Origin: Monosiga brevicollis MX1
Taxonomy: Eukaryota; Opisthokonta; Choanoflagellata; Craspedida; Salpingoecidae
DNA: 61,560 bases
Direction of reading: 5' to 3'
NCBI RefSeq assembly: GCF_000002865.3
Contig: NW_001865089.1
Span: 104,232-165,791 of the forward strand
Under the pieces are notes generated by a model. The model saw only the letters and a list, made by a program, of their open reading frames with translations, made no database searches and was not told where the DNA came from. Position 1 is the stretch's first letter; every line of letters starts with the position of its first letter. Below, in pieces: positions 3,301 through 57,581 of this stretch. The position numbers and the translations under genes were made by a program.

Positions 3301-6300
3301 CGCGTACGCTACCCCTCGCGCGGTGGCAGCAATGCGCAGGCTGCTAGTGCCCGTTGGCAAAGCGATTGCCAGGCTTCCATTGTAGATGTAGTTCCGAACG
3401 CGGCGCGCATACGCATGCACGGCTGCAATTTGGGAATATGTATTGGTCTCGACCACTAGAATATAATCTTGCGCGGCAATCACTTGTCGTCCGTATTGCG
3501 CCATCAGCGTGGTTGTTTCATTTTGAGCCAGAGTCGCCATCACAGTCCATGGCCACGGGCCAGTCAGGGGTAAATTAACGAGCAGCTGCACCGCCCCTCG
3601 CTCCGGAATATGAGCCGTGGGGTCCTCTTCTCCGACCCACACTTGAGGCCCAAAAGTGGCTTCGTCCACAAACACATCCCCATGGAGGCTTTGCAGCGGC
3701 ATGTCCAAAGTTGCAGGTGAGGTCCAGGCCGCCTGACACCTAGGAAGGTCATATGTGGTGCAAAACAACGGAAAAAAAATAAACGCATGCCAAGCACGGT
3801 GAGAGACTCGACGCTGCCATATATCCACACCCAGGCACATCGTCCTGCCCCCCACCCTCCCCCTTTGAACCAACGCAACTCAATACCTACATCCACGCCT
3901 TGGCGCCGGCCATCGCGTTGGTCGGGCAGACAGCACAAGCCGCGGCCAAGTCGGTGACATTCAAACGAAAAAAACCGTTGATACCACAATCAGGAAAGGC
4001 AGAGCATACGCAATTTCTGACTGTTCCTGTCGTGAATGGGTAGGCGGTCGAGATGTGATCCAAATGCACACGCCCGCGTCCTTTGATCCAGACCTCAAAA
4101 ACTTGTGGCTGGTCAGCGGTGCCCGACAGCGCGAGCCACAGGCTGACTGGTCCAGCCTCATCGACGTACGTGTGCGCATGCACGTTGTTCGCATCGTCCC
4201 GCAGGTTAATCACACCCTCGAAACGTACACTCAACACGACCTCATGCAACGCCGGTGTATCCGTCATCAAAGAAAAGTTGGTAACAAGCTGCCACACGAC
4301 TGCATCGAGTGGGTATGTCTCCAAGCCCGGGGAAAACTGCCGAAGCTCGCGCTGGGCAGGCAGAGGCACCAAGCTAGCGTCCGTTGCCAATGCCTCAACC
4401 TTGAGCTGGAGATCCAAAGCGGCGCCAGGCCAGACGATCAAGGGTGCAGCACTCAAGAGTTGAGCGGAACATGTCCAGTTCCAGGAGTAGACCCCAGACT
4501 TCAGCCAAAGAGTGCTGCCCTTTGCCCCAAAGGCATACTCGCTGGCATTGGTCCAGGCTGCCGTTCTGAGGTCTGCCACTACCTGCCCCTGAGGACAGCC
4601 TGCTAAGGGCAGTAACAACGGAATGGGCAGCAGTGTGTCCACGCCGGTTGGGGTTGGCCGAAACATCCCGACGGATGAGACCGCGGACACCCATCGCACA
4701 GTACAATTTACATGGGCGTCTAGCAAGTTGAAGAGTGACTGGGATGCTAGATGCCGTTGCAAATTTGCAAGCACGCAAGTGGAAGCCGAACCACTGCCGC
4801 CGGGTGTCTCAACACAACCTTGCAGCAACGAAGACGGAGGTACGGCACTAGGAAGGCAAGCGTCACACGCGCGAACGACGCTCATCGCCCCCGGTGTTTC
4901 AAGTGCCGACAGGCCGTATGGCGCTGAGAGGGAAATGTTATAACTCAAGGCTTCGTCTAGCGTAGACGACAGTGTGAGTACTACGTCAGATGTGCTGTAT
5001 AGCTCAATGGGGATGCGAAATCTTGGCGTGACTGGGCGCGAGGTGAAGTTCGCATTGAGCGACGATAGGTGAACGACGATCACGAGACCGTGCGCCTCGG
5101 CGTTTGAAGCAAGCTCAAACTCCAACAGCACCGGGGCCGGCACAGCGCGAATCAAGTGAATTTGCGGTACACCAGGGCAGAGAACCAGACCCGTTGCGTT
5201 CCGACTCGTCACAAACAAGGGCGCGCTGTTGTCGATCGATGGTATGGGCTCGCATGCTGAAAAGTTTGTTGGCTGGGTGGACGTGCTTGGCAAGTTGGTG
5301 ACAGGCGGGGCTGTTGTACTCATGACACCTGGCCAATCTGACTGGGGGGGCGACAGGAGCATCCAGACGCCATTTGCAAACTGCGCTCGAACGGCCGCAG
5401 CCCCTGCTCGCTCTAATCGGGTGATGACGCTGTCTGTTGGCAAGTGACACAGCGATCCGTGTTCAGGTTTGACAAACTCTAGGCGCTTCCCATCGGCGAC
5501 GACGATAGTGGGCGTTGTGTCTGTCATGAACATGTCAAAGGAGTTCACCTCATCATCGTAGTAGCGGTCGTCGCTGCCTCCGTCATCTGCACCGTCATAG
5601 TCGTCACTCCCAGTGACAGCGAGGTTGCTCACTTGATTGCTGCCACTGTTTTCTCTGGTGCCTGTCCTGCGAGCAGGAGGTACCACGATGAGCAGCTCCG
5701 CGTTGATGCAATCCAGCGCTACAAAATGTGCTCTGATCAACGTTGACAGTTCAGGATTCCACTCATAAATGCTCAGAAACACCACTCCAGTTTCCATCTC
5801 CAACACGGCCAAGTGAGATGCGTTTATGAAATCAAAGGCACCTCGAACGTTTTGCAAGACGGGCACGGTTCGACGGTCTGCAAAACTCCAACGATACAAA
5901 CACCGTGGCGCGGCAGGCCCATAACCCGGGCACTCGGCTGTATACCAGAGGCTCCTGGTATCCAGCCTGGCTACGACACGCGTGACGCTGCTTGTGATAA
6001 CGCGCAGATGACCCAGTGTTGGACTGGGCACGGCGGGCACCAATACCAACGAGCCTAGCGTTGCATTATCCGCAGTGCCAGAAGTCTCGGTGACTGTACT
6101 CTGGCACCACAAAGCGGCCATGGTATCCGTCAGCGCCAAGATGACAACATCTGCACATTGGAGAGCCTGAAGGGCCTCGGAAGCGTGGACAAAGCCGGTC
6201 CAGGCAGTCGAGGCTAAAAAGTAGCGGTTGTCGAGAAGCACCACGCTCAACACACTCCAGTCCAAGGCTGCGCTGTCAACAAGCTCGGCGGTCGCGCCGG

Positions 6301-9300
6301 TGCCGTTGAAAACACCATCGATGGGACTACCTGGACACGCAGTCGACAAGACATGCACAACTTGATCTTGGCCTTCGTCCACCAGCACCGGTTTGCACTC
6401 TATCATAGACACGACGGGAGCTACGGGGCAGAGGCTGGGGGTATAGGCAATGTACGCCGTCTGCTCAAACATGCTCATGTCAACGTACAAGACCGGAAAT
6501 GTACCTCGCGGGCATGAGATACTATCCCGCTCCACGACGCACGACGTTGCAGCACAATCAACGCGTGTGGCCAGGGAGAACGCCTCAAATGCGGGCCCTG
6601 CGACGCATCGTCTGGCCGCCATGGTCACTGACCGCAATGCAGCGGGCACATGCACAGTGACGTGTCGAACAAACTGCAGGGATATGGCCATGTGCCAACC
6701 CACACCGGGCGCACAGAGCGTTGTTGTGACGATTTGGTGCTCCGCGGGCAACACTATGATTTCAGGAGACAATGTGGCACACGGTAAGGAGTAGTTTGCA
6801 GGGAGGCCACCCGTTTGAAGAATGACGTCGGTCACAAGTTCGTGAGGCCGGGCGTTCAGCGGCAGGACAGCAAACTCGCTGGTTATGGCGCGTAGGCGCA
6901 GCGTGGAAGCTGTTGGGGTCAGGGAGCCGTCGGCTGCATCGGGTAGGCTGTAGATAACCGCTGCCTGGCAAGCCGCCGTGGAAAGCTCGGCGGCCTCGAT
7001 GCGAACCAACACGGTGTCAAAGGAACGAGGCCGTTGTCGAACCAGAACGTAGACGGCACTGCCAACAACGGCGCGTGAGAGCACCGTCCCCCAATGCGTC
7101 GGGCAGGAGGTTAGAGAGCCCTCCTCCAGCCCCAAAAGTCCCACGCGCCACGCACGCGTGGCGACACTTTGTTCGACAACGGCAAGCACGGGCTGTTCAG
7201 CGATGCGCAGGGTGCCAGCAGGCGTCCAAACACCAGACAGAAACGTGGTTACGTTTCGAACAGGAGAGGACAAGTGCACAATGCGCAGATTAGTCATGAC
7301 CGTGCTTGAAATCGCGTCTTCGTGGTGCTTGAAAAAAATTGCTACGGGCTCCGTCAAGGCCGCTCGGAACAGCCTCAACCCGCTGTGCGCGTTGAAAAAT
7401 ATTTGTGCATCTCCCTCCGCCACACCTGAGTCGCTGTTCACTGAGGTGACAGAAAAATGGTCGTCCTTGTGCTCGACAACGACAAACAGCGCACCGTTTG
7501 AAGCATTGACTCCGCTGGCAGTTGCGTTTGCAGGCTGGGCGGCGGAAGCCAGAAGAACCAAGTCTACCACACTCACGCCTATTGTCCACATGCGCACAAT
7601 CATGAAGCACGGCTGGCCATTGCTTCCGAGCGTACGACATGGCGCGCTCCACAATTGATCAGTCAGCCTGGTGGGAACACCTGTAACGTTGACCTTGACC
7701 TGATACTGGTATCGGTCTGGGGCCAAGCCAGACGCTGTCAACTGCCATTCGTTACGTGGCCCCGGGGAGCGCCAAATAGGAGTATGCTCAGTCGGAGACC
7801 AGCTAGCAAAAACATGACCCGTCCAAAGTGCCGAGGCAGCCAAGCCATCGGGTATGGGCATCGACGGAAACGGCAGCGCACAGGAGCAGGACAAGCCATC
7901 GGCAGATATGTCGAGAACATCATACGTGGCGAGTGGGGCGAGGTGGAGGATGATATGCACATGCTTGTGTGCTGGTATCAAGGTCGGCACCAACAGTTCC
8001 TTGTGTTGGGGCAAGTTCAACTCAACGTCATCAAAGATGGTGGAGGTGTTGACAGCAAGCGTGGTACGGCGGATACCTCGAGAAGCACCAAACCGACTGG
8101 TAATGGAGAGACTGATGGGCTCGAGGGAGCACCAGTCCAAGCGCACGTGGGCTAGCGGATTGCTGTTATCCAACATGACCACCGTTTGTTGCTGCGGCTT
8201 GCACGGAAAGGTGCGGAAAGGCGCCAATTGAGACAAAATTGATCGCACAGCCGCTGTGGTTTGTAGCATCACCACAGAGAAGCCCAGGCCTGGGTGCATC
8301 ATGGTCAAGATGTTTAGGTTGAGATGGGCACGCCACCCTGCTCTGAGTCGCATAAGCGTTATCGCGTTGGTCCTCACTGAAACAAAATACGGGAGCTCTG
8401 TTTCGAAACAGCCCAACCACTCATCCTCGGCCAGCAGAATCACAGGAAGCGTGCAGTTGTTCGCCAGGATGGGAAGAGATGTTACGTCATCTCCATTGAG
8501 TAGCATATCTGGATTGTCAAACACGATGACGCTGGACTTGACGCCGCGGGGCTCTGTCACGTGCCAGAAAGTCATGTGATGACGCAGAAAAATTCCAGAA
8601 ACGTGACCATCAATGCCGAGAAGCTGACGCGAATTTGAGGTGGTCAACCGGAGCACAGCTTTATTGCTGTCAACCATCATGATGTACAAAGCCACCGAGC
8701 CCCCCGCGGTGCTGGCTTGAACAAAGACATGCGAGCTGTTCAGTGCAACCATACCAAGCGATGCGCCATAACCCAAACCATCGTAGCCGCCGCCAGAAAA
8801 GACGTCATTTGTTTGCGGTAAGCTGTCATGGGCTGCGACAATGTAGCCTTTTAACACATGACCAATTTGCGCGCGGCTCCAAGGCATACTCATCATTTGA
8901 AACTGATTGCTGCGGAGAGCATTTCGCAGAAATGGGTCAGTATCGGTTATGAGGAAGTTGTCCGTGTCAGGGTAATACTTGACAATGAAGTTGCGTAGAT
9001 CAGGGAATTCAAAGGGGCTGCGGTTGCGAATCATAAAGATAACCTCCTCGTTTGTGTCCACGCGCTTCAGCTGCGCCCCAAACTGGTAGCGGTCACTCTT
9101 CAGAGCAGAGGCTTGTAACAAGTCCCATTCTTGGCCCGAGTTTTTGGTTTTGGCGGCCAAGCTGGATAGATTCAGCGCCTTGGATATGGACAAATCGAGT
9201 GGGCTCAAAGCTAGGATGACACTCTGCTCGTCCGTGCACAAGCAAGTCGTCTCGCTGCACTCACAATGATGCAGAGCCATCGTGTCGAATATGGTCATGG

Positions 9301-9908
9301 CGCCGTAGACTTGAAAGGTAGAAAAGGCAGTGGCGTTGTCATAAAAAGTGAAGCCAATCGCTCCTGTTTGGAGCGGCGTTGTCTTGAACCATGACATGTT
9401 GTCAAAATTGAGCAAATCTGGGTAGAAAAAACAAAAGGTGATCAAGCGCACATTGCAGGAGAAAGCCCAGATGCAGTCGCAAGTGAGGGAGTGTGTGCGA
9501 TGGGAGATTGTGTGCTTGTGAAGCGGAGAAACTAAACAATTGGTAAAATAAAATAAAAAAAATAAAGACCTCTGGCGCATCAAAGAAAACCTACCTAGCG
9601 CCTCATAACTGTCGCCGTTCACAATGCAGATCACTCTTGCAAAGGTTCCGCATTGGTCTTGTGCGCAGACAGCGACGGCCGTGCACACACCCAGAAAGGC
9701 GTAGCTGTCCGCCAAAGGAAGGTGTACGGTGGAGGAAAGTGGCCAATGCGTGAGATAGGACCAAGTCTCGCGGATTGTGTAGCGTTGATAGCTCACAATG
9801 CCAAACACTACGTCAATCATCAAATGTGAGAGCGAGGGGCCGCCATGCCGAAAAAAAAATATCCGTTAGCTCCCTAGCATCCAAACATATGAAACTCAAG
9901 TCCCCCAC

Positions 9909-16408: not shown

Positions 16409-18705
16409 ATGATTGCGAATTCATGCAACCACACACACCCCTGCTTGCCCCCTGCCTCACATGCACTCCCTCGCCCTGCTTGCCGCTTCCGCTTCCCCAC
16501 ACATGGCCTCGGACCTCACCTGCTTCATGCTCTAGTCGTGTCTAAGATACCCATGCCTAGTATTTGTCTGATGCCCAGTTCCTCATGCTCATTGTTTCAT
16601 ACCCCGTATCTCCTGCCACGTACCTGTTCCTTGGCATCGGAATCGTCAAGTTGCACGTCTCACGGTCGGGCTTTTCCAAAAGTCGCCGTCATGCGCCCGA
16701 CGCCGGCGCCTCTTACGCATGTGAGCGTGATCCGCCACATGTTACACCCACGCTTTTGCACTGCGGGTTTGACAGAGAATGACCGCGAACGGGTCAAAGG
16801 CTTGGTTGTGCTTGGAACCGCCCAGCGGCCCATCCGTGGCCAGCTGAAGGAGGTGTTGTTGCTGGTCCATGGATCGGTCGATGACGAGCTGTACACGCTC
16901 AGGTGGTGCATCGAGACTTCTCCCGCCCCTCAGGAAACGTTGACCCGCGCCCGCGCCCTACTCAGCTCGCAACCCAACCCGGCCGGCTTGGAACCAGCCG
17001 CTGGCAGCATCGCCGTTGAAGACCCTGATGCGGCCCCGCCATTGGTTGCACGCGTCAAGCCACCGCGGCACCGACTGGCCCCTATGTCGGTCGGCGAACT
17101 GGACTTTGACGTGGCAACGGATGAGGAAGAGGACAGCGCCACTTGGGCTCCAATGGATGGGGCACCAGCCGTTTTTGAGGCTTGGGGGAGTGCGACCATC
17201 GACCCTGGCCACGAAAGGGCAAATTTTAAAGCACGTGCTCCGCAACTTGATGACGCCTTTGCGCTTGATGCCTGTGACCCTGGCCACGTCTTCTTGCACT
17301 TCCTCCCCCCGCGAATCCTTGAAAACATGCTTCGTGGGAGCTCAGTCGCTTCCTTATCCAAGGAGGAACTGCTCGGATTCTTTGGCTTGCAGCTGCTCGG
17401 CGCCAATCACGCTCGGGCGACCGAGGATCTGTTCAAGCCGTCGCAGTCGCAGTTTGACGTCTTTCCGGACTTTTCCTCCATCATGAGCCAACACCGCTTC
17501 CGCGAGATTGCCAAAGGCCTTCGCCTCACTGACACCAAGCCTCGGGGCGGAGCCGACCCTTTCCACGCCGTGCGGGAGATGGCCGAAGCTTTCAACGATC
17601 ACATGGCTAAGAGTAGTGTATTCCGACCGTCTTCACTCGTGTGCCTGGACGAGTCCATGGTCACGCATCACCAGGAGGAGGACCCAGGCTTTGTCTTCAT
17701 TGGGCGCAAACCCCATCCGGTCGGCAATGAGTACCATGCCATCTGCGATGCCGAGACCGGGATCGTCTATCGCATTGAGATGGTGGAGGGCAAGGCTCGC
17801 CCACGACAGCTCCCACTGAAATATGCAGAGCACGGGCAGACCGGTGGCCTCATCCTGCGCATGACAGAGACCAGCGTAGGCATGGGCCGCGTTGTCGTCA
17901 TGGACAGCGCCTTTTGTGAGCTGCAACCGCTGGTTGAGCTGCGCAATCGGGGTACGTTTGCGGTCACAGTTGCTGAGAAGCGGCACGACTGGCCCAGGCA
18001 TGTCCCTGGCGATAATGTCCAGGCCCACATGGCCGACAAGCCGGTGGGGCAGCTGCATGGGCGCCGTGGGAGCCTCGATGGTGTTCCCATGTGCCTTTTT
18101 GCCGTCAATCATCAAAAGTATGTCTTGCTCATGATATCGTCCTATGGAAACACGGACCAGAGCGCAAGGGTCGCGTGGATCGGGACATAATTTCCTACCA
18201 CCGCAACCAGCCCCTCGATGACTACTATAACGGGCGCCACGCCGTGCACGATCACAATCAGCTGCGTCAGTGCCAGAAACGAGATCTGGAGATGGCCTGG
18301 GACAGTAAGTTTTGGGACATCGACCAACTAGTGTTCGTGGTCTCGACAACCTTGGTGAACACGCTCTTGTGGTACAACCGTCGCTATTTGGCTCCGCGCG
18401 GCCGCCAGCCCTTGTCACTAAGTGAGTTGCGGAGCAAAGTTGGCGAGCACCTTGTGCAAATGCTCGTCAACAGCCGCCCCGGCATGTCCCCGGCCTTGTG
18501 CCAACCCCACGCCCAAACCGGAACGCTTCATCGACTTATCAGCATTCCGCCATACCAAGGCTCGCGCCCAGGAAAACGCGTCAAGGCCAGGTACCAAGCC
18601 GTGCGCTGCCGTGGTGAAAACTGTCATAAAATGGTGCGCAAGTATTGTCTGTGTTCGCCTGTCCTCTTCCTCTGCATCGAGTGTTTCGCCCTGCACATTC
18701 AATAG
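16409..18705 (+). CDS. piggyBac-like transposase with one frame break
   Basis: DDE_Tnp_1_7-type transposase. An acidic N-terminal region (about residues 215-260) is followed by FLHFLPPRILENML and KEELLGFFGLQLLGA. The catalytic core has DESM (in SSLVCLDESMVTHH) and MDSAFC, then KYVLLMISSYG. The frame then breaks near 18110-18170. It continues one frame over with GRVDRDIISYHR, a YYNGRHAVHDHNQLRQ box matching the family's YN..MGGVD..DQL region, and a Cys-rich C-terminal finger (RCRGENCHKMV ... CIECFALH). The true start is unclear: the first 110 or so residues from 16409 look low-complexity, and a start near 16690 is as likely. The break could be a real frameshift or a very short unrecognised intron. 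Terminal repeats were not found. Confidence 0.8.
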
Positions 18706-34320: not shown

Positions 34321-37300
34321 CTAGAACCGCGCCCCCGTCCCAGTCGCACAAGGTGCAGCAGAGACATGGCAACGCTTGTGCACCGTCTCAAAGCAGAGCT
34401 CGCACTCATACGCAGCTTTGCCCAAACCCAAAATAAGCTTGTTGCAGACCGCGCACGAGGGCGGCAACGCGTGCCGGCTGGCACGGAAAAAATGCCCGTG
34501 CACAATGTGCAACTTTGAGCCGCTGGCATCCCCGCGATCGCCCACCTCACCCATGCGCTGTTGAACAAAATCCCGTGCCACTGCCACCCAACCAGACATG
34601 CGCGCGCAGGTGAGACAAGACACCACAAAAGACGTGACCTGGCCTGCAGCTTCAGGGCTTCTAGCCACAGACTCTCACCTGGATCGCCTGCTCGCATCAG
34701 CAGTACGCGAAGCAATGTGTGCGCACGCCGATCTAGAAGTGGGACCAAGGGTTGCTCCAACTCCATGTCTTGGTGTGCCGCAAAATCCATGTCCTCGAGT
34801 GTGCATGTAGCCTCGCCCAAGAACGTGCGCTTGCGACCGTCGATGTGCGCAACCTCCAAATGCACGGTGCCCCGTAGCTCAAACAGCTTAAACTCACAAC
34901 TTGCGTTGAGCTTGGGATTGAGACCCTCCTGCACGGGCGCCAAGGCTTTCGTCTCCAGCTAAAGCCAAAGTACATTTGACAACAATCAAGCTTGTGAGAA
35001 ACAAGGCCCAAAACCCACGATTAATAAGCGGGGCAGCCTCTAGCTTACATTGGTGGCGCCTGAGGCCAGACGCTGGCGCACCGTCACGTTCACCCCAACA
35101 TTCATTTGGCCAACGCTGGCCACGGCCGGCAGATTACGGCAACCGTGCACCGTCACCACAATCTAAGATTCAAGCCACATGTGATAGCGTCAATAAGATG
35201 GGCGCGCGTAAGCACTGACAGGCACCTTTCGGGTACGCTGCATCCCAAAAGCCATGCCTTGTCGTTGAGATGCAGGCCGCCATCCAGCAACAGCCGAACT
35301 TGAAAGGTCATCGAGGCCTTGTGCGCCGTCTCAGGTGTTAACATTTTCTCTGCCTGATACCCATGGTACATCCACATAATCTCCTCCGTCGTGTGCTGGC
35401 CCAAGCGTAGTTGGTGACAAATACCATCATAACTCCGCGTCTACCCCAGAACAGGAGGCCCAGGGCCATTTAGTTTTTTTCCGTTTTCTTGAGATACCAA
35501 CATGGCACTCGGGCTTTTGGCAGTGCACAAACCTCCAAGCGCACAGACGGCAGTCCTTCGCCGTCCGCCATGAAATATGCCTTCAAGATCTGCGCCAGGC
35601 AACAAAGGACATGACATGTTACCATTGTTAATTGGACAAATACAGTGACAAGCAGAGTACCAGGTGCCCCCACCTCGAGGAAGTTGAGCATGGTGGTCGA
35701 CTGATGCATGGTCAAAATGCCTGTGCGAAAGCTACTAAGACGAGCCTGTACGACCATCAGGACCATGTCCCAAAGACGGGCCAAGACATGATTGAAGACA
35801 TCCTGTACAATGCAAGGCGCAGCTGATTAGTTCCCCCATCAGGAAGCGTCCTGTGCTCGATTCGGATGGTTGTTGACAGCGAAAACCTACCTCGTATAGA
35901 TTATCGGACATGATCTGAAAGGATTCATCCAGGTAGTCGAGCAGTGGCTCCATGGAAATGCGTAGCTTGTGCTCATCAAGAAGAACCTCCGTTTCGGAGC
36001 GGGAGCGCCCTCCTTTTGCGGTTGGCGGCTTGCTAGGCATGGCCAATGCTGGATCAGCGAGTCAAGGAAGGCAAACAAACTCCAATAAGAAAGAGCAAGC
36101 CCAGCCCAGAAGCGCCAGCCCATGCATGACACGGGACGCGACCTACGTCCGCGCGTGGTCTCATGCCGCCTCCAGGTAGCTCGCCTGCTCTCCCTCATCA
36201 TGCGCTCCATGCGCCGCTTGACTTTCTGTTCACGCACAGGAGCAAGTGCGGCATCAGATTGTGCAGTCAAAGTCGAGTTTAGGAGAGAACAAGGTCAGAT
36301 ACAACAACTTCTCGGCCAAGACTAACATCCATTTTGCGATCACTCAAGCCTAAGATTTTGTCTTTGCCGAATTTGGCCTACAAAATTCCAGAGCAGGTCA
36401 AGCACGGGAGAAGCGACCATGAGATCGGGACGAGCGTCAAGCGTCTGCCGAGTCTGGTTCGGATCATCACGCAACGAGCCAGTACCTTGGTGGTGGAGCT
36501 GAATGTATCCGCCTTGAATACCTACAGGTACCGCAGCAACAGAACCGTCAAAGCAAGCCTTCCAAAAGTTAAGACAAAGAGTGTTGGTAGTGGGACAGAC
36601 CTCAGCAAAGAGAGGCTTGGACTTGCGAAAACCCAATAGGAACCCCAAGTATTGGTCCACTGTCAAGCGAAACGTTGCTGTAATCCGATCCAGCAAGGGC
36701 AAGAGTCCCCTGCACAGGCAAATGCCAAGGGCAGCACAATTTAGAGATGAAGCACACGCCTACCAAAATGCAAGTCTGCTTTTAGATCTTACCCTGAAAG
36801 CTCTTCAGCAGCCAGTTTGAAGCTTTGCTTGACGGCTGCCACGGGGTCAATGGCAACATGTGGGCGGGCATCTGCAATGATCATTTTAAGAACCGATACC
36901 AGAGTTAGATATCATAAAAACAGAACAAACAAACCTCTGGAAAAAACAAACAAACAAAAAACGTACTGTTGGCATCTCGCTCCTGAAGGTCGTCGTCGTC
37001 GTCGTCAGTGCTGCCATCCGAGTCGTAGTTGTGAGAGGTGTTTGAAGCAGACGGCGCTTGTCCAACGCTACGAAATCCCAATCGCAATCCAATGGCGCGC
37101 AAGCCGGTGGGGCGGGGTGGCTCGCGAGCCAAGGGATGCAGCTCGTAGCTGCTTTCACCTTCCAGCTCGGCTTTGCGATTTGCCTGCTCGGTTTGGAGCT
37201 GGAAGAGATGCTTGAGAACACTCTCTTGCAAGTCCATGATACCATCGCTCAACTACATGCACAAGCCATCCAAAGTGTCACACAGGACCCTAACACATGC

Positions 37301-39774
37301 ACATGCCAGCGCCTGGACTCGTGATTTGATGACTGCTCATTCATGGAAAAACCTACCTGGGCAATGTTGTTGATGGCAATGCAGAGCGCTGACGTCAGGG
37401 GCTGAAATTGGCTCGCAGCAGAGGGTGGTGGAAAGGGGGCGCGGAGGAGAGTTGAATAGGTGTGCACGGTTTGTACGACGACTTCGGCAAAGAGTTGGTA
37501 AAGAGTGCCGGCCGTGGCGAGATCTTCCCACCCGAGCTCAACCAGCTCGTACACGTTTTGAGTAAAAAAGGTCAAGAGATCCACGACGGCAGTTGAATGG
37601 AGGTGGCGGTCAGAGATGGGTTGACCAGGGTCCAGTTTGTAGGCTCGTTCGGCATACTTGACGCCCTGCTTGGCCAAATTCTGCAGCCATCGAGAAGCGT
37701 GGGGAAGGAACCAGGTGTAGAGATCGCCATAAACCTTGGCGCACTGGCCCGTGGTCAAACTTTCAATGTACCGTTTGCGGAAGGAGCGAATCTTCTTGAG
37801 GAGATCGAAAAGCTCAAAGGGAAGCGGAACACTGAAGGCTGGATCAAGGAGAAGCTCACGGCATTGGGCGGCGTGGGGCTGACACAGGCCCATCACGTTG
37901 AGCGCCACAATGTCGACGAGGGCGTGGCGCTGAAAGTAGTTGATGTAGAAGACGAGGTCGTATTTGAGTTCAGCGTCAATCATTTCGCACATGGTTTGGA
38001 GCTGGAGAACCGGCTGATCAACGTTTTCGGCTTGCGCGGAGGCCCAAATGAGTTTGTACATTTGAGATTTGCAGGTGAGGACGGCCTTGCTCACCACGTC
38101 AGCGACAGCCGGAGCCACGGGCCGAAAGTACTTGATGAGCCGGCAGGCTAGCACAAAGACTGAGAGGAAGTGATCAAAGATGGGCGGTACGATGCGACTG
38201 TGGGCTACAAATTGAAACTTGTACTGCTCCAGATCAGGCCGCATAAAGTCCACCAGATCCTCAAGTGACGTTGTGATGGAGCCGACGATGGCAGTGGTGA
38301 GACGGAGACAGGACATGGTTTCCTCGAGATCCGGGTGGGTGATGGGCTGGAAGGAGACTTGGTGGGTAAGGAAGGAGAGCAGGGCCACCATCTGCGGCCA
38401 TTCGAGCTCGGCATGTGGGCTCTTGGTGAGGACGCGCACGTATTCACTCACAAGCAAAAGCTAAAGCAGTGGCAAGCAAGAGGGACGTAAGGGCATAATG
38501 AGTGACACCACCGATGCGCGTGCAATGGCAAACAAGACGGGTGAAGAATGAGGAGAATTGTGGCGGTGGAGGAGGGGAAAAAAAAAAAAGGCAAGGCACA
38601 TACCATGACATTTGCGCTTTTCTCTGGTTTGAGTTTGCCAAGAACCGCATCCATGACCCGCTGCGCAGGGACGGCTATGCACCGAGCCTGCTGCATGTCC
38701 ACGTCCTCGGCCTAAGGATNNNNNNNNNNNNNNNNNNNNNNNNNNNNNNNNNNNNNNNNNNNNNNNNNNNNNNNNNNNNNNNNNNNNNNNNNNNNNNNNN
38801 NNNNNNNNNNNNNNNNNNNNNNNNNNNNNNNNNNNNNNNNNNNNNNNNNNNNNNNNNNNNNNNNNNNNNNNNNNNNNNNNNNNNNNNNNNNNNNNNNNNN
38901 NNNTGGGGGGTGGGCATGAAAAATTGAAGCGTGCTCGCGCAAGCGAGAAATTTTGTCTTGCCTCGATTCGCTGGGCTTCATGATCAAGAACATCGTGACA
39001 GACGTGCCAGGCCAAAGCATCTTCCTTGCCAAGTTGTTGTGGCACGGCCCAGAGTGGGGAGACGGCATACTCGACGGCGTCGGGGCGCAGCTTGGCGGTA
39101 GTGACGTTCATCAATCGAAAGGCGACGGTGAGGGTGCCGCGTACATGGGATCGTGGGTTGCGCTTTTGTAGAGCAAGTTCGACGGGTTTGCCGCTCTGGG
39201 CGAGCTCGGTGACCTCGGCCGGTTTGAGGGCGGCCTGGCCGAGGAAGCGGACCTTGCCCTCGCGGACCTGCTCTTCTGCGCGGTGCCAGGGAGCAAAGCT
39301 AAAGCGGCTGGTGGAGGAGGAGATGGACACATCATCAAGCTCGCCATCGGCAGGGGCATCGCACCAGACGGCCAGCTTGAGCGGTGCCGTGAGCTTGGCG
39401 CTGCCGAGCGGGATTTGAAGCTGACAGTCAAAGTCGGGGTCGAGCGTGTCCTCGATGGTCGGAGTTCGGCGCATGGCGTTACCGTAGACAGCGGTGGCAA
39501 AGGGATGGCTCGTGATCTTTTTGTACTTGGGCAGCAGGTTGCGAGCATGCTTCATGTGCACGAGGAGGTGGTATTTGGGAGCGTGGCGCTCGGCCTGTGC
39601 CAGCTCCTCGCGATACAGTTGCCGCACGTACGTCTCGGCCTGAACGCGCTCGCAGACATTGGACGTCCCCAGCGGCTTGACATGTTTGATGGCGGACAAA
39701 GCAAAATCCGCCACCTCGGCCCGATTCAGCCCCCCATCCTCCACAGAGGCAGCAGCCTCGGCACCTTCGGCCAT
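34321..39774 (-). CDS. Unc13/Munc13-like protein: C2, MUN, C2 and C-terminal C1
   Basis: Predicted vesicle-priming factor that binds SNAREs, Ca2+/phospholipid and possibly diacylglycerol. Firm exons: 39774-38962, 38711-38604, 38460-37357, 37252-36967, 36871-36793, 36709-36601. Later exons are visible but not all bounded. N-terminal C2 (LLVHMKHARNLLPK ... PFATAVYGN ... TLDPDFDCQLQIPL). MUN/MHD1 (MYKLIWASAQAENVDQ, DLLTFFTQNVYELVELGW), then a second MHD part (LLDYLDESFQIMSDNLYE, HVLARLWDMVLMVVQA). A second C2 (IVVTVHGCRNLPAV ... VNVTVRQRL ... FLGEATCTLEDMDF). A zinc finger at the very end matches C1 (H, then CAVC, CELC, H, C, C) but with a shorter last spacing. In Munc13 the C1 precedes the central C2, so this order differs. 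Intron 1 has a GC donor and contains the assembly gap. Confidence 0.82.
38720..38903. other. Assembly gap (184 N)
   Basis: A run of 184 N bases. Flanking exons of the Unc13-like gene end at 38962 and resume at 38711 in phase 0, so the gap lies within an intron; an unseen exon inside it cannot be excluded. Confidence 0.95.
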
Positions 39775-39816
39775 CCCGATCCAGTCCAGTCGCCGGGAGG
39801 CCGAAGCGCGTTCGTC

Positions 39817-39817
<1 letters not shown>

Positions 39818-39847
<30 letters not shown>

Positions 39848-39880
39848 GAGAGGAGAGAGAGAGAGAGAGAGAGAGAGAAG
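39818..39880. repeat. GA microsatellite
   Basis: Two GA runs separated by a short interruption, starting about 45 bases upstream of the Unc13-like start codon (CT on the transcribed strand of that gene). Confidence 0.9.
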
Positions 39881-40082
39881 AAATTGCACATGAAAAGGAG
39901 AGAGAGGGGGAGAATGGGAAGAACCTCTTAGCTTAATTTCAAGCCAAATACAGAGATATGGGTATGAGCCATGGTCACGAGCAGAGACACGGAGAGCAGT
40001 TCGTTTTGTCATGTACGACTCCAAGATGGTTTGGCTCTAAATTTAGAGTACAAGAACCCGCTAATTTTATCGGACGCTGCAA

Positions 40083-47834: not shown

Positions 47835-50800
47835 ATGGCTGCCCGCCAAACGTGGCCCATCGACTTGATGGTTCACCCAGAATTGCCCGAAGAGATGGTG
47901 TCTGGACTGACATGTTCGGCCCAGGCGCTTGATGCCATTTTGGGGCAGCCAAAGGGTGGCAAGCCAAGTCAACGCAAAGGGCTTTACGAAGAATGCTTGA
48001 GCTTGCTTGTAGCCTTTACAAAAGCCGCGCCAGCACATGATGCCAACACACCACTGGCCGAGGATCGCCGCTTGTGGCAGTTGCTTCCCCAAGCTTTGCT
48101 CATGGTCCAGCCCCTTGCCGATCAAAAGAATGAGGCCAACAGTGAGGCCGACTGTGAGGCCAGCAGTGAGGCTAACGTCGAGACGGCGCGGACACCGCAA
48201 GACCTGGCTGCCAACCTGCACCGCCTTGGCAAGCCGTGTCTGTTGGTCCATGCTCTCTGCTTGGAATATGGTTGTGCCATCGTCAGCCGCACCAATGCTG
48301 GTGGTGATTATCACCTCGAGGTTCTGAGTCTCGATGTTCATGCCTTGCAGTACCTCACACCTCCCAACAAGCCGGTCCTGCTCAGCCGAGGACAGCAAGC
48401 TCTCCCTGTTGGCGTGGTTTATGAACTGGAAAAAGCGCAAGAGGTGGCCGAGACGGCTCTGGAGGTTGCTGGAAAGCTTCGCTATAAGAGCAAAAAGTCG
48501 CAGAACCAGGAAAAGAAGCACCACAGTACCCCAGGCTTCATCCATGGGGCTTGCAAACATGCACTTACTGCACTGCAAACCTCAAAAACACCAGTCGATG
48601 ATTCCTTTGAATTTACCGGTACGCTGTATACTTGCTCTTCGGGCAACTTTTCGGTCGAAAATGAACTTCATGATAAGCCACTGCATCTGCCAGCCACATG
48701 ATGTGGGAGTGTATCCTATGACTGACCCTTGCTGTGCTATTTGTCGGTAATAGATGGTACGCTGGATTTTGGTCAGCACACCCACACGGCTCACAAGCCG
48801 ACTGCTTGGCCAGTGCTGCGGGAGCTCGTGCTGTATGCCCTCCGAATCAGGCAAGAAGATCCATGGGCCAGCCCACCACCGAAACGAGCAAGTCCCCTGG
48901 CCGAAGAACTCCTTCTTCTGCGCTTTGCTGCCTTTGTTACCACGTCCAATGCACCAAGTCAGTCTCATTTCCCGAAACATCTTCAGGCTTTTGAACCCGA
49001 ACCCGACACACTATCTTTTACCAAACCGAATAATATGTTGCCTTCGTATCTTCATCTCACCACGTGTACCATGATCGATATAGGAAAAATCGATCAACCG
49101 CATCATAAGGCCTTGCAGCGCTGGACGATGCTTGCAAATACCTTCGGTCAGAAATTACGTGCAGTACATGATCCTCTGCTGCACGCCAGCTTTTGTGAGC
49201 TCTGCCATGACATGCAAATCTCATGGCCAACGCGAGATGAGGCGATCTCTTCCACCGAGGCATCATGCTTACCAGACTTTGACAATCTCGACTTTGATCA
49301 AGTGTCTCGCCATTTGCCTCAAGATCTAGCTGAGCGGCTCAATGAAACAATTGCCGATTTGACTCAGTGTATCCCAGCTCCGCTGCAAGCACTCGACCTC
49401 GAGGCAATTTGCCAAGACCTCGGCGAAAGCATACCGCATGACACAGACTTATTCAATGAGTTAAACTCTGGACAAGTGACCATCGAGACATGCACTGCTT
49501 ACAGGCCAAACGCAGTGTCACGCAGCCAAAAATTGTCCCAGACAATACGTTTCAGGTTGCTCTTTGAACAGTTGGTGCATGGCTTCCTTACGCGTGTGGA
49601 CAACGAAGAAAACTTGTTGCTGGAAGAAGGTCAAGATCAACGCCTCATGGAGTTGCTGGCTTGTTATCGGGAGAAGACAGACGAGCTTATGGACATATTG
49701 ACAGCTCCAGAAGAACCAGACATTACCACGCCGTTTGTGGCAGAAGTTTTAGCTCCGCCAGGCGTTCTACGCTCCAAAGTCGCCCTAATGGAGGCTGGCG
49801 TGTTGGTGATTCTGCGTTGCGCTGCAGAGCAAGTTTATGAGCGACTGGGTTGGACCAAATACCCCATGCCCCAGATTGACGAACAGGTCAAGACATGGAC
49901 GCTCCCGTATTCCAGAGACCAGCGCTGCTGCCAACAGATCGTGCGGTTCTTACGAAGCAGAGTTCACCGCGCTAACCAAGATCCGCTTGGCTGGTGCAAA
50001 GGACACTTGTTCGGGCTAGATTCGGATTTCGCGCAAAATTATGCAGATTGGTCGTCCAATACATACAAAGCCTTGCGTTCTCGCCTTGTGCTTGAGCGCA
50101 AGCATGACGAGGAGAAGAAGGCGCGACATTGGAAAGAAACTTTGGAAAAGCAAAAGACGGAGCGTTTGGAAACAAAGTGGCTGCAAGAAAACCGTCCACA
50201 CCTAAAAACCGCTCATCGGGAGCTTGAATCGGCGTTAGCTGAGGCAGATATGAAAAGGCGGCTGTATGAACGCCACTACGGACAGTGTCCAGTGTACTAT
50301 TGCATCAAATGTCAAGCCCTTTCCGGGGACACGGACAGTGCTGCCGATGTTCAAGAGGACAAACAAAGGCAATACGACCGGTGGAACACCACAGTCGAAA
50401 GCCACGAAGAGACGCGCATGACGGCTCGAAAGCCACCTTACCCTGTTCAGCTTTCACTGCCAAAAGATGACCTTAGCGGTCTTCAAGCACTGTTCATTCT
50501 TTTCACGCCACTTCGCTTTCAGGTCTTGATGAAAGCAATGATTACTGTAGTGCTTCAGACGCATGATAAAGATCAGTCGCGGCCCGACCAGTACAAAAGT
50601 AGCAAATCCTCTTTCACCCCCATGCAAACGTTCTTCAACGAGCATAAGGCAGGGGACCAGGATCGAGCGCAAGCCACCGACGCTTGTTTTCCTGCATTTT
50701 GGTATGTGCGTGTTGCACGCACCACGTCCCAATATTCCAACGTCGGAGCGCTTGACGGCCGAGAAGATGATGTCTACTACATGCGTCCTGAGGAAGGCCA

Positions 50801-53800
50801 GCCTTATGCTGTTTACAAGCGCAAGTCTCTTGCAGAGATCGTTGCCTTGTATGGGGCTCTGCCACCCGATGACAAGAACCAAGCTGATGACAGCAGCAGC
50901 CACTTTCGACACATTGCAGACACACCTGTTCTTGAGGACGATGAGCCCAGAAACGACCGAGGCAACTATGGCAAGGCTTTTCCATACGCTCTGGGTTGGA
51001 ACGACAGCCTGGAGGCGAGTGAGGCCATTTCTGCCCTGCGTGCTGGTGCCCTAGCACAATGGCAGCAATTAGCTGCTGTTCTACGCACAGGTGTACTACC
51101 TCTCAGCGATGCCAGAGTGGCGCGAACCTGTCTGGCCATTCTTGCGGAGGTGGGCCCTGTGAACGTAACAACGGAGAACGACAAAGCGCACGGCAGACGG
51201 TGGGCATGGACGACGCAAGATGACCACGCACACAAGGCCTTTCTTGTGGCCCTCGACGGCGCAATGGCCCGTCTGGGTCGAGCCACAAAGCTGTTGCCAG
51301 ATGCAGCAACGCTGGGTGCCTTGGCTGGATGTCTCACCGCCTTTGACAGGGATGAGGACGCAAGCAGTGAATATTCACCTGGTGACAATGGTCACAAGGC
51401 CAGCCTGACTGCCTTTGATCTCCTGATGAAGCTCACAGATTTTCTGCATGAACATGCACGAGAATGGGCCAAGCAGCTGAACCACGCGATTCAAAACGGT
51501 TACCACAAAGAGGCCGATGACTTGACTCAGCGACGTTTTGACGCCTTCAGCTTAGCTCTTCTTGCTTTTCGTTTTGTGGACTGGCGAGTGCTATCGCCGC
51601 CAAAGCGCCAGCGGGCACTCCGACGCTTGGTTTGCCTGCGCATTCTCAGCAGCCGTCAGAGTCTGATGGCCGAGGCGCCTAGCGAAGCAGTGAGCTGCCG
51701 CAATCGTGTTTTCTCCGATGCCACCAATACACTCATGACCGAAGCGCTGCATTTTTTGCATCCAGAGCTCATGGACGCTCTCAATGATGCAAGTTTTGCG
51801 GCCCAGGTGGAAGCCTGGTGTCAGGAAAGCTTGAATCGCCCTGGCGGTGAAGCATCTACTTCACGCAATGGGACATCAAGTTGCAAACTGGGTCGAAACC
51901 GCTTGACTGCGTTGGTGATCAACGAAGGCGAGATTGCCATCAACATGCTGACGGGGGACATGCTCTTCAACGGCAAACCGCCTGGCCTCCTGCCCCCTCG
52001 CATGCTGCAAGATGATTCTTATCGCAACCTCTTTGGTGACCGACGCTTCAAGGTGACTTCAGACCGGGACGGCAGGACGTATCGATCGGTTGCGCCTTTT
52101 GATGGGCATCACTATCGCTTTACAGTGAAGAACAACCGCTTGAACATTTATCAGACCCCTGAGGATCATCGAGACGACCCCGAGCATGAGCTGCTCTACG
52201 CACCAGAGATAAAGACTGGGGCTAAACCGATTGATGACCTCCATGTTCCATGGATGTCACCAGCCACCAAGTCTGTCGTTTGGCGCAAAGACCCTACCCA
52301 AGGCGCGCTCAATATACAAGCTCAGGTAGCTGCGTACGTGTGCGTCGCCGATGAGAACCAGCGCCGCTCTCTGTTGAGGGTACCATCAAATCAGGATGGG
52401 TCATCCATCCCCAAGCTATTCCACAAGGCCTGGGAACATGTGTCAACCAACATCAGCAACAGCAATAATGACAGCAGTTGGTTCACCTGGATCTGGCCAG
52501 AGGCTGTGCAAGCCGTTCCAGAGCTGTTACAGCTGAGCAAGGTGCTGAAGCGGGTGGATAGTTTGGCGTACATCACTTGGCATCTGCCCACGGAGGGTGT
52601 TTCTCAGCTTGAGATTGACTTGCTCCAATGCGGCACACAGCTATCTCTGATACCAGCAGAGGGACTCTTGTCCATTACACATCGCGGTTACCGCCTGGCC
52701 AAAGACCAGCTGCTGCACAATTTGCTACCTTCACACACTGCGTACCTCGTACTCGAGCGGCACGATGGGGGTTCACGTCCAGCTGACCTACTGCAACTTG
52801 CGCGACAGGTGGTGCTAATGCCAGATCGAGACGGCGAGTCAGCGAAGCCCAAGCCTGGGCAGCTGCCACGCATTCGTACCTTTATTTTCAGTATTCATGG
52901 CATACTCGGCCATCTCGAGGCAGCATCGCGGATGTCACGTCTCTTTCTTGCTCGCGAATACAGTCGGCTGCCAATGCACTTGATGGAGAAGAATTCAGGT
53001 CTGTTCGTGGCGGACAAAGCCGCGGAGCTTCTTCGAGAAAGTTCGCATTGGGCGCAAGCCCCCACAGAGTCAACACTTGAGGAAGAGGACTACATCTGGC
53101 AAATGGCCGACAAGTCAGAATCAGAATTTGCTCTGCTACGGCTTCGTGCCCTTGCCACGCTGCGTCAAGGACGGTCTTGGGACAGGCAGGCAGACGATCC
53201 TTGCAAAGAGTGGAACACGCCCAGTGAATTGGCGTGGTATCAGATGGTCGAACAGGAGCTGCCCGTTACAGCAAGACTTGATCGCTCAGAGCGTGACGTA
53301 TTGGAAATGCCGCAGCCGAGTGGCAGGGCCCTTCCTCGACCCTTTCTCGGCGACTGCGAGCTTGATACGGATGGGTCGCGCATATCAAATGCCGATAGGG
53401 CATCTCATGGTAGCCACACCACTCAGACTTTGCTTGACGCAGCCCGAACCGAAGCCGACAAAATCCCATCCGTGCGAGCTATGGAGGAAGAGCTCTTGCA
53501 TCTTGTCACTCAGCGACCTGTGCCACGTATGGGTGCCACTGATTCAACGACAACGTGGGCAGCAGAGCTGGACAATCTTAAAAACAATAAGAATATATTG
53601 CCCGAACATCGTGAGCGTCTGACCTCGCTGTTGCTCGAGATTGCTAAGGCGAGCCGTGACAAAACAACCAAACCAGCGGCCACCACATCCATTGGTCGCC
53701 ACCTGCATCAGCAACTCGAGAAGAGCAAAGAGCTCCATGATTACCGTGCAAGCGTGCAATTCGACGTGTCGGAGCAGAGCGTCGAAGCTATTCTTGCTAA

Positions 53801-56800
53801 ACAACGCACTAGGATTGATTCTCGACAGGCGTTATGGCAGGCCATTGCAGCCGTACTCAACCCAACAATGAGCGAGAATGTCTTGAACGACGATCCCATT
53901 TGTGCCCGGTACCAACTTCTTTTGACGTCGGGCCATATGCGCCAAGCCTCCCCCCGAGGGCTGCTGTATATATGTGCCGGGAGGGACGCCCACGAGTGCT
54001 GGTCGCGGGCATGCGAATTCAATTTTTTTATCAACCTTGAAGACATGCATCATCTACTGAAGTTGGCAAAACAATGGATGGAGCTTTGTGTGCTCGAGCA
54101 GCGGGTTGATCGCCTGTCGCGCCTGGTTCAATGCATGTACGCTGTGTCAAAAGACGAGCAAGAAGGCTTACGGCAACTACTGCTCCTGGAACTCACCACG
54201 ACGCGATTGATCTGGCAGCAGCCTGCAGACCATGAATTTGAGATGCAACGCCACCAAACGGGGGATGATGCAATTCGCCGGGCGACAGAGCGTGCCTGGC
54301 TTGTTTTTGAGGTTGAAAACCAACTTCAGATCCGACCCAAGCAATACCATGTTGCCTGGACGTTGATTCGAGACTCAAAAGCCGGCAAAGCTCCCTTGCT
54401 ACAGCTGAACATGGGAGAAGGCAAAAGCAAAGTGATTCTGCCGTTGCTTCTGCTACATCAGCGCGTTCGTCGCCGCTCACAGCGTCCACTACCTTTTGTC
54501 TTCTTCTTGCCTCAACTGGTGGACCAATCGCTTGACCATTTGCAACGCACGCTGACGGCCAGCGTCTTCCAGTTGCCACTGCTGCAGCTGCACTTTGACC
54601 GCCAAGTCACGGTTGAGGCCAACTGGCTACCTCGGGCTAGACAGCGCCTTGAGGCATTGCGCCGAACTGATGGTGGTGCGGTTGTATTACGCTCCAGTGA
54701 CCTGCTATCGCCGGAGCTCAAGTGCATCGAGCTGAACTCCTGTGCTCCGGCCTTGTCCAAGGGACTGCGCGATTTATTGAAAACCATGCCGCGTGTGCAT
54801 ATTTACGACGAGATTGACAAGATTTTGGACTTTCATTATGAGCTCATCTACGCCGATGGGCCCCGCCAAGCCGTTTCACGCCGTGCTGAACGCGTGGCAG
54901 CTTGTCAAACTTTGCTCAGCTTGCTTCATCACCCAACCGATGACATGAATGAGGCAATGCTCATGTCTGATGGTACCAAATGGATTGTTGCGGAACATCG
55001 CGAGCAGTGCAGTGACCCCAGTGCGTTCGCGGTGCCCTTGGTTGTCAGCGACTCCGTGCCTTTGGAGAAAAAGATGCAGCTTCTTCGAGCCATGTGTCGG
55101 GCACTCTGCTCGACAGAGCATGACACCCGACCTGAACTCAAATGGTTGCAGGGCCTCACAAGCTCTGACAAGCATCACGTAGAAGAGTTTTTGTGCGAGC
55201 CAACAGCCTCGCTGCATGATTCACTTGGTGGCGCTCTGGCCGAGGACAAAAGGGCCCAATTGTGCGTGCTGCGGGGTCTGCTGGCACATGGAATATTGGT
55301 CCAAGTGTTGCATCGTCGCGTCAATGTCAATTACGGGTCAGACAACCGACGCAAAAAGCAGCTGTCGGTTCCCTACGAGGCCACGGACTCACCCACCACG
55401 CGGAGTGAGTTTGCTGACATTGACAAGTTGTTGGTCATGACTCATCTAACGTGGTACACGGACGGCTTATCCCTCGAAGGCATGCAAGATGCGCTTCAAC
55501 GCCTTGGCCGACTCCAGCCTAGTCGGCAAGAGACCGTTTATCAGAGTTGGCGACGCGCGGCTGGCGAGCACATCAAGCAGCACCAGCGTGTGCCTGACAA
55601 GGCTGATGAGTTGGACGTCAAGGACTCTAACCAAGTGCAGCGAGTGTGGGAGTGCTTTCGTCGCAATTACGAGTGCATTAACTTTTGGCTGCGTGAGGTC
55701 GTGCTGCCTCGCGACACCTGCGAATATCCCAAACGACTGCAAGCAACCCCTTGGCACTTGGCTGACGTGCCGGAACAGATGGGCTTCTCTGGAACCAACG
55801 ACACCAACCTCACTCTTCCCTTTGCCGTTTGTCCGGTGCCAGACATGAACGAGCTCGTCGGTGCCGCTGCTAGTCTGCGACCGACAAAAGAGGATGTTGA
55901 TCGTGAGCTCGCCGCAACCAACGGCATGATGGTGCGCGCACTTGAAGCCCACTGCGTGCGCAATGAGGTACTCTGCCTCGACAACATTGCAGAGGGTCCC
56001 GACACTCCCGTCATGGAGCTGGTGCTGGCAGCCGTGCTGAAGGAGGGGGCCCACGCCTTGATTGATGTGGGGGCTCAGCTTGCAGGCAAGTCGTTGAGCG
56101 CGTGCGCCAAGTACATTTTTGAGAACAGCACGTGGACCCATGTGGTGTACTCGCTGCGTGATCCACGGCAACGATGGGTCGTGCATCACCGCAATGGCGT
56201 GATAGAAAACCTGCGACAAAGTGCAGTGGCCTCAGCCGATGCCCTTGTCATCTATGACCAATTTCAATGCCGAGGAGCAGACCACAAGCTAAAACAACAA
56301 GCCAAGGCTATCATCACGTTGGGGAAGAACGTTTGCAAGGATGAGCTCATGCAAGCAGCAGGTCGCCTGCGACAGCTTCAGCGTGGCCAAAAGTTTCTAT
56401 TTGCGGCACCCAAGTATGTGCTGGATGCGATTCAAAAGTTGCCAGGCCGAAACGCCTCTCAACGTGTGGAAATCCAAGATGTGATCGAATTCGTCATGGC
56501 AAATACGAAAAGTCGCAACTTGGGCGGGCTTCATTTGTGGGCTAAGCAGGGCCTTCAGTTTGCATATAGCAAAGTACATGAAGGCATGTTTGTACTTGAC
56601 GAGATAAATGAGCCTGAATCCTGCTATGGCATGCCTAATGATACACTCACTGTGAAAGAAGCTGCCAAGCGCTACAACAAAGAAGTGCTGGAACCACAGT
56701 ACTCAACGCTTCATGCAGAATGTGATCGTGCAGAGTGTGAAGATGGGCTCCAAAGGGGCATTGCGCGCGTGCTGAAACATTGTGGACGCTATGGACTAAC

Positions 56801-57581
56801 GCAAGAAGAGCTAAAGGCTGCCTCCGCAGCAGCCTTGGGCGAAGACTTGGAAATTGAGCGTGAAGAGCAACAGGAGGAAGAAGAACAGGAAGAGGTGGAA
56901 CAAGAAGTTTTGAGTGTGGAGCCTAAGCAAGAAAGCCTCTGGAACGTGGAGATTCTGTTGCAAGGCTCTCCTAAGGAGCTGAAGACGCTTCCTCTGAAGA
57001 TGCTGAAAACCTGTGCGGCCTTGAAAGATTTGCGCTTGAATTGGCCAGCAAACACTGAATTCTTCTGCACTCAGAATTGGTACCAATGGTCTGCAGGATT
57101 AGAGCACGAGACGCGGCTCCCCTATGTGCGCGCGTGTGTTGTGCGCTTTGAGGGGGGGGAACGACAAATCACGATTGTTACAGAGCGCGAGGTGGACCGC
57201 CTATACCAGCACGAGACCGATCCCTATGTGCGCTTGCCTCATGCTTGGCCCCACGATGAAAAAAAGGCTTGCATCGTCCAATTGCCACAGACGTCGACAC
57301 CTCGTGCTCTAGAGCTGTTGGGGAGCGATGGACTCGGCATGTTTTTGCTGATCAATGGCGAGGTTGACGTCAAAGCTGAGGATGAACGTGGTGCGCCGCT
57401 GGTAGGCAGTGCCTATGATGAGATTAAGAAAGAGCTCGAACGAGCCTGGATGAACGCTTTGAGAGAAAGCGAAGATCCGCGGGAAGTGGTTCAGAAATTG
57501 CTAGCGCCACGAAACGCACAATTGCGTTATCCCGAAAGCCAGGTAGCTGCTATCTGCGATCAACTCTCAGTTGGCAAATAA
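47835..57581 (+). CDS. Giant DUF3638/DUF3645-type ATPase, 3,203 residues
   Basis: Very large protein with SecA/superfamily-2-like motor motifs; the family's function is not known to me. Exon 1 (47835-48618) and exon 2 (48754-57581, 8.8 kb) join in phase 1. Residues 1-2100 are mostly helical with no family I can name beyond possible DUF6606-like similarity; there is a basic coiled coil near residues 710-770. The motor: motif I LQLNMGEGKSKVILP (GEGKS at 2149-2153), motif II YDEIDKILD (DEID at 2280-2283), GFSGTNDTNLTLPF (about 2605-2618), DQFQCRGADHKLK (about 2763-2775), and motif VI QAAGRLRQL (GR at 2798-2799). An acidic Glu/Gln coiled coil follows (about 2945-2975). The order fits DUF3638 then DUF3645. 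There is no signal peptide or membrane segment, so it is probably cytosolic or nuclear. A 9-base direct repeat flanks its single intron. Confidence 0.85.

Follow-up and report, generated by a model that had tools for sequence, protein, structure and literature searches.

What does the giant gene at positions 47,835 to 57,581 of a 61,560-nucleotide stretch of the Monosiga brevicollis MX1 genome (contig NW_001865089.1; "the window" is this whole stretch) encode, and on what could its motor act? A sequence-only reading had proposed a 3,203-residue SecA- or superfamily-2-like motor of the DUF3638/DUF3645 family with no agreed role. Here we examine the gene model, the predicted fold of the motor and the relatives of the protein, and weigh what such a machine might do.

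Gene model and motor motifs

The forward-strand frame 47835-57581 is broken by two in-frame stops near 48700, and excision of a 135-bp GT-AG intron gives a single open frame of 3203 residues, so that the proposed gene holds once this intron is removed. Exon 2 alone stays open for 8.8 kb. A paralogue in the same genome, C56, aligns with residues 28-3196 of the window protein across 3304 columns with 34% identity, which shows that the frame is genuine rather than a product of chance. The features are as follows, with residues numbered after splicing and row counts taken from a motor alignment of 56 rows.

47835..48618 (+): exon 1 (residues 1-261), no domain found by Pfam, start codon provisional, as is its place as the first exon
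48619..48753 (+): intron, 135 bp, GT..AG, the sole frame-keeping pair among three splice pairs tried
48754..57581 (+): exon 2 (residues 262-3203 and stop), open frame
51918..53294 (+): central region (about residues 1317-1775), homologous to chlamydial giant proteins, profile-profile E 4.8e-14
54012..57578 (+): region modelled with AlphaFold2, SecA-like fold over about model residues 16-908
54288..54941 (+): DUF3638 (PF12340), first RecA-like half of the motor, E 5.8e-38
54342..54344 (+): Q-motif-like Gln, residue 2125, Q in 56/56 rows
54414..54428 (+): motif I, GEGKS, residues 2149-2153, G2151 and K2152 in 56/56 rows
54807..54818 (+): motif II, DEID, residues 2280-2283, D-E in 56/56 rows
55344..55442 (+): DUF3645 (PF12359), E 1.7e-11
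55782..55796 (+): GFSGT, motif-III-like, residues 2605-2609, T in 54/56 rows
56352..56372 (+): motif VI, QAAGRLR, residues 2795-2801, Q 56/56, R 56/56 and R 55/56 rows
56835..56906 (+): glutamate-rich stretch downstream of the motor, about residues 2956-2979
56937..57578 (+): C-terminal domain, profile-profile E 5.8e-5 over 52 columns against chlamydial proteins

The Pfam search of the exon-2 frame confirmed the proposed family, with PF12340 at 130.9 bits (cut-off 31) and PF12359 at 43.7 bits (cut-off 25). The third family named for this check, PF20255 (DUF6606), was not found: it gave zero matches in the exon-2 frame, in exon 1 and in the whole genome (39.47 Mb, 57 contigs), the genome search being one without any control match. 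Fungal DUF3638/DUF3645 members carry an N-terminal DUF6606 domain, which to our knowledge is not defining for every member. The GEGKS, DEID and Q-x-x-GR-x-R motifs that had been read from the letters are all present, the last as QAAGRLR, with 515 residues between motifs II and VI, and the motif residues vary little or not at all across the alignment. The latter uses 53 of 59 chlamydial open reading frames (ORFs), two having been excluded by length and four long ones (L163, L165, L203, L207) omitted. At the level of sequence, computation thus shows a DUF3638/DUF3645 protein in which motifs I, II and VI of a putative superfamily 2 helicase/translocase ATPase are intact. The acidic coiled coil of the sequence-only reading corresponds to the glutamate-rich stretch listed above, a putative coiled coil.

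Other searches returned little. Pfam gave no match of the window protein to PF07517 (SecA_DEAD) at E up to 1 and found no nucleic-acid-binding domain in the window gene. NCBIfam (best 0.1), PADLOC (zero) and PHROGs (best 0.28) furnished no usable match, and PDB sequence profiles gave weak matches only (best 1.1, 0.012 for Snf5 and 0.07 in separate runs).

Predicted fold of the motor

The motor region was modelled from an alignment with 55 relatives, and the top fold match of the predicted model is SecA. The best SecA rows of the structural search lie about 4 Z units above the RIG-I/MDA5/RecG-like rows; the top 12 rows align 427-549 residues, compared with 350 in the best RIG-I row, and identity in ranks 1-24 is 8-12%. 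In the model, strand 128-131 leads into GEGKS, strand 261-266 leads into DEID and QAAGRLR ends helix 776-783, so that by model residue position the three motifs are placed as a RecA-like core requires. A weak hhalign alignment (E 0.13) additionally pairs the window GFSGT with the GMTGTA of SecA. The model therefore supports a SecA-like fold for the motor core, in line with the kind of motor first proposed.

Paralogues and chlamydial relatives

DUF3638 occurs at three loci in the genome, which also has 114 SH2 matches, a richness in keeping with a choanoflagellate. C56 is a full-length paralogue collinear with the window protein, and C53 is a divergent one whose ORFs lie on the same strand and in order and probably form a single gene. 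C53 combines an N-terminal domain common to chlamydial proteins (E 3.7e-17), a thioredoxin-like domain that follows it in the N-terminal ORF (Thioredoxin_8, 2e-18; L007 4274-7000, minus strand), three UBA stretches (E 1.1e-20), a DUF3638 motor (E 5.8e-26) and a RanBP-type zinc finger (E 7.2e-4, under its curated cut-off) with a second finger-like copy judged by eye.

Outside the choanoflagellate we found relatives in the intracellular bacteria of the phylum Chlamydiota. Our phylum survey took a chlamydial genome as its centre and was repeated on partial samples of three further phyla. PF12340 exceeds its cut-off in 94/232 Chlamydiota genomes (110/232 at E up to 1e-3), with at least 11 matches in the richest single genome, and the matches frequently lie in open frames of about 3000 residues; sub-threshold DUF3638 matches also occur in Chlamydiota with genomes of about 1.0-1.3 Mb. 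No genome exceeded the cut-off among 398 Pseudomonadota, 288 from the phylum of a Kiritimatiellae genome and 294 Planctomycetota sampled. Sub-threshold matches were seen in 23 of these 294 Planctomycetota, and both of the two checked as possible relatives proved to be RecG. In a set of 15 genomes, five had a match, all five reached via loci with chlamydial titles, and five other chlamydial and five non-chlamydial genomes had none. There were no relatives in IMG/VR or in plasmids. A two-pattern search of GTDB contigs also gave none, a weak result given that it missed chlamydial members later found by hidden Markov model (HMM), and the two hits at E 0.1, both to records of the same phage, were judged chance.

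When the window protein and C56 were compared by profile-profile alignment with the 59 chlamydial ORFs, the overall E was 6.7e-93, with uneven confidence concentrated from about residue 1300 to the end. By segment, residues 1250-2090 (E 4.8e-14), the motor (E 1.4e-51) and the C-terminal part (E 5.8e-5) were significant, while residues 1-330 (0.38) and 330-1300 (0.8) were not. From about residue 1300 onwards, the relationship of the window protein to the giant chlamydial proteins is shown by these computed alignments. The most glutamate-rich 24-residue window lies 160 residues past motif VI in the window protein and 140-210 residues past it in 30/58 chlamydial proteins, one of the 59 having given no motif VI; only 1/58 reaches a half-glutamate level there. 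In a tree whose eukaryotes are three choanoflagellate copies only, the quick version needs one change for these copies and the careful version two, the copies grouping together in 38% of its bootstrap trees. From this tree the direction of transfer cannot be read.

The N-terminal domain that C53 has in common with the chlamydial members resembles, in its chlamydial form, Legionella LegA15/AnkD and AnkH in the fold search (PDB 7kj6, 7ew8, 6mca). This result and PMC6712400 favour the AnkH type over a circularly permuted papain. The HMM of the domain, built from 35 of the same 59 ORFs, reaches E < 1e-3 in 52/59. Triad counts are biased, 30 N-terminal rows having been picked from 48 mostly for holding the motif. 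This AnkH-type cysteine-protease-like domain (His, Asn/Asp, Cys triad) is degenerate in C53, where the His position is Asn and the Asn and Cys are retained, and no recognisable copy occurs in the window protein (HMM E 5.5, hhalign E 0.38).

Chlamydial genomes also hold SecA-type frames. In one of them SecA_DEAD lies in two giant open frames, 5178 and 3323 residues long (L251, G109:C4:130000-149500; G109:C1:867505-867930), for which no motor-HMM match to DUF3638 appears among the matches listed, and another (G115) has two extra SecA-like ORFs, L252 and L253 (1134 and 1118 residues), besides its normal SecA. The extra SecA_DEAD ORFs of the two genomes were rejected as motor kin (motor HMM best 1.6e-4), and when a local SecA HMM was run on the 59 chlamydial members, the best E was 0.28.

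Possible function and known systems

We give about even weight to the reading that the protein is a very large scaffold bearing a motor with a SecA-like fold, which uses ATP to thread polypeptides and is perhaps linked to ubiquitin. ATP binding between the two RecA-like halves would open and close a clamp formed from the long insert that separates motif II from motif VI, and by analogy with SecA its movement could pull or unfold a polypeptide. The clients may be proteins that carry a tag of ubiquitin or of a ubiquitin-like protein, since the sister gene C53 encodes a zinc finger as well as three UBA domains, and the chlamydial members carry a protease-like N-terminal domain. With that domain lost or unrecognisable here, the window protein would therefore be a remodeller rather than a protease. 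A bolder version, which we think improbable, holds that eukaryotes and chlamydia-like bacteria share giant SecA-fold machines threading ubiquitin-tagged proteins to a protease or pseudoprotease domain of clan-CE-like type; each would be an unfoldase that resembles the proteasome but is a single chain and is based on SecA and not on AAA+.

The chief alternative is a superfamily 2 motor that depends on nucleic acid, of the RIG-I/MDA5/RecG type, for example an antiviral RNA sensor or remodeller; the higher scores and longer alignments of the SecA rows and the absence of any nucleic-acid-binding domain found by Pfam speak against it, and we consider it rather unlikely. A somewhat stronger case, though still a tentative one, can be made for a family exchanged between intracellular chlamydia-like bacteria and their protist hosts, with a role in host-symbiont conflict as an effector or as a host gene captured by symbionts. 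This would suit the chlamydial expansion, the lack of matches over cut-off in the three other phyla sampled and the effector-type N-terminal fold, and there is a precedent in PMC3639933, where insects are described as having giant eukaryotic secA-domain genes that are related to genes of ciliates, slime moulds and Salpingoeca and that were transferred into Wolbachia and Amoebophilus. The tree, however, gives this exchange no direction and does not firmly unite the choanoflagellate copies. Exchange and a SecA-type motor do not exclude each other. That the locus is an inactive relic or mis-modelled seems very improbable: the start codon is unproven and the intron was deduced from the frame alone, but the long open exon, the collinear paralogue and the intact motifs all argue the other way.

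Elsewhere in the window, a transposase ORF (16409-18190, +; DDE_Tnp_1_7, E 7e-61) is one that we take to be piggyBac-type, neighbouring ORFs at 37249-39891 (-) carry MUN and C2 domains and are Munc13-like, and a 1978-residue open frame at 3887-9823 (-) has zero Pfam matches.

The statement of the sequence-only reading that such proteins have no agreed role fits the literature: the accessible passages of the open-licence literature that mention DUF3638 assign it no function. They describe it as a large family in Nematocida, among new Tetrahymena genes, as a lineage-specific gene of A. oryzae and as expanded in Hypomyces. We found no publication in the open-licence literature that brings Chlamydiae and DUF3638 together, and the large expansion of the family in Chlamydiota is brought to light here. 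Together, the SecA placement, the ubiquitin-binding domains and the protease-like effector fold would give this unnamed giant a testable role as a protein-threading machine.

Compared with the SecA/SecA2 preprotein translocase ATPases, the window protein differs in its size of 3203 residues, in having no SecA Pfam match, in its motif II to VI spacing and in the low structural identity given above. The domain of the Legionella effectors LegA15/AnkD and AnkH is not recognisable in it, and we know of no such motor in these effectors. The secA-domain giants, likened here by description, are in PMC3639933 likewise giant, SecA-related and shared with endosymbionts, and to that extent they lower the novelty of the window protein, which differs from them in having no SecA_DEAD match. 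It is closest to the Pfam DUF3638/DUF3645 proteins, alike in having both domains far over cut-off and different in that DUF6606 was not detected; to these our analysis adds the predicted SecA-like fold and the chlamydial expansion.
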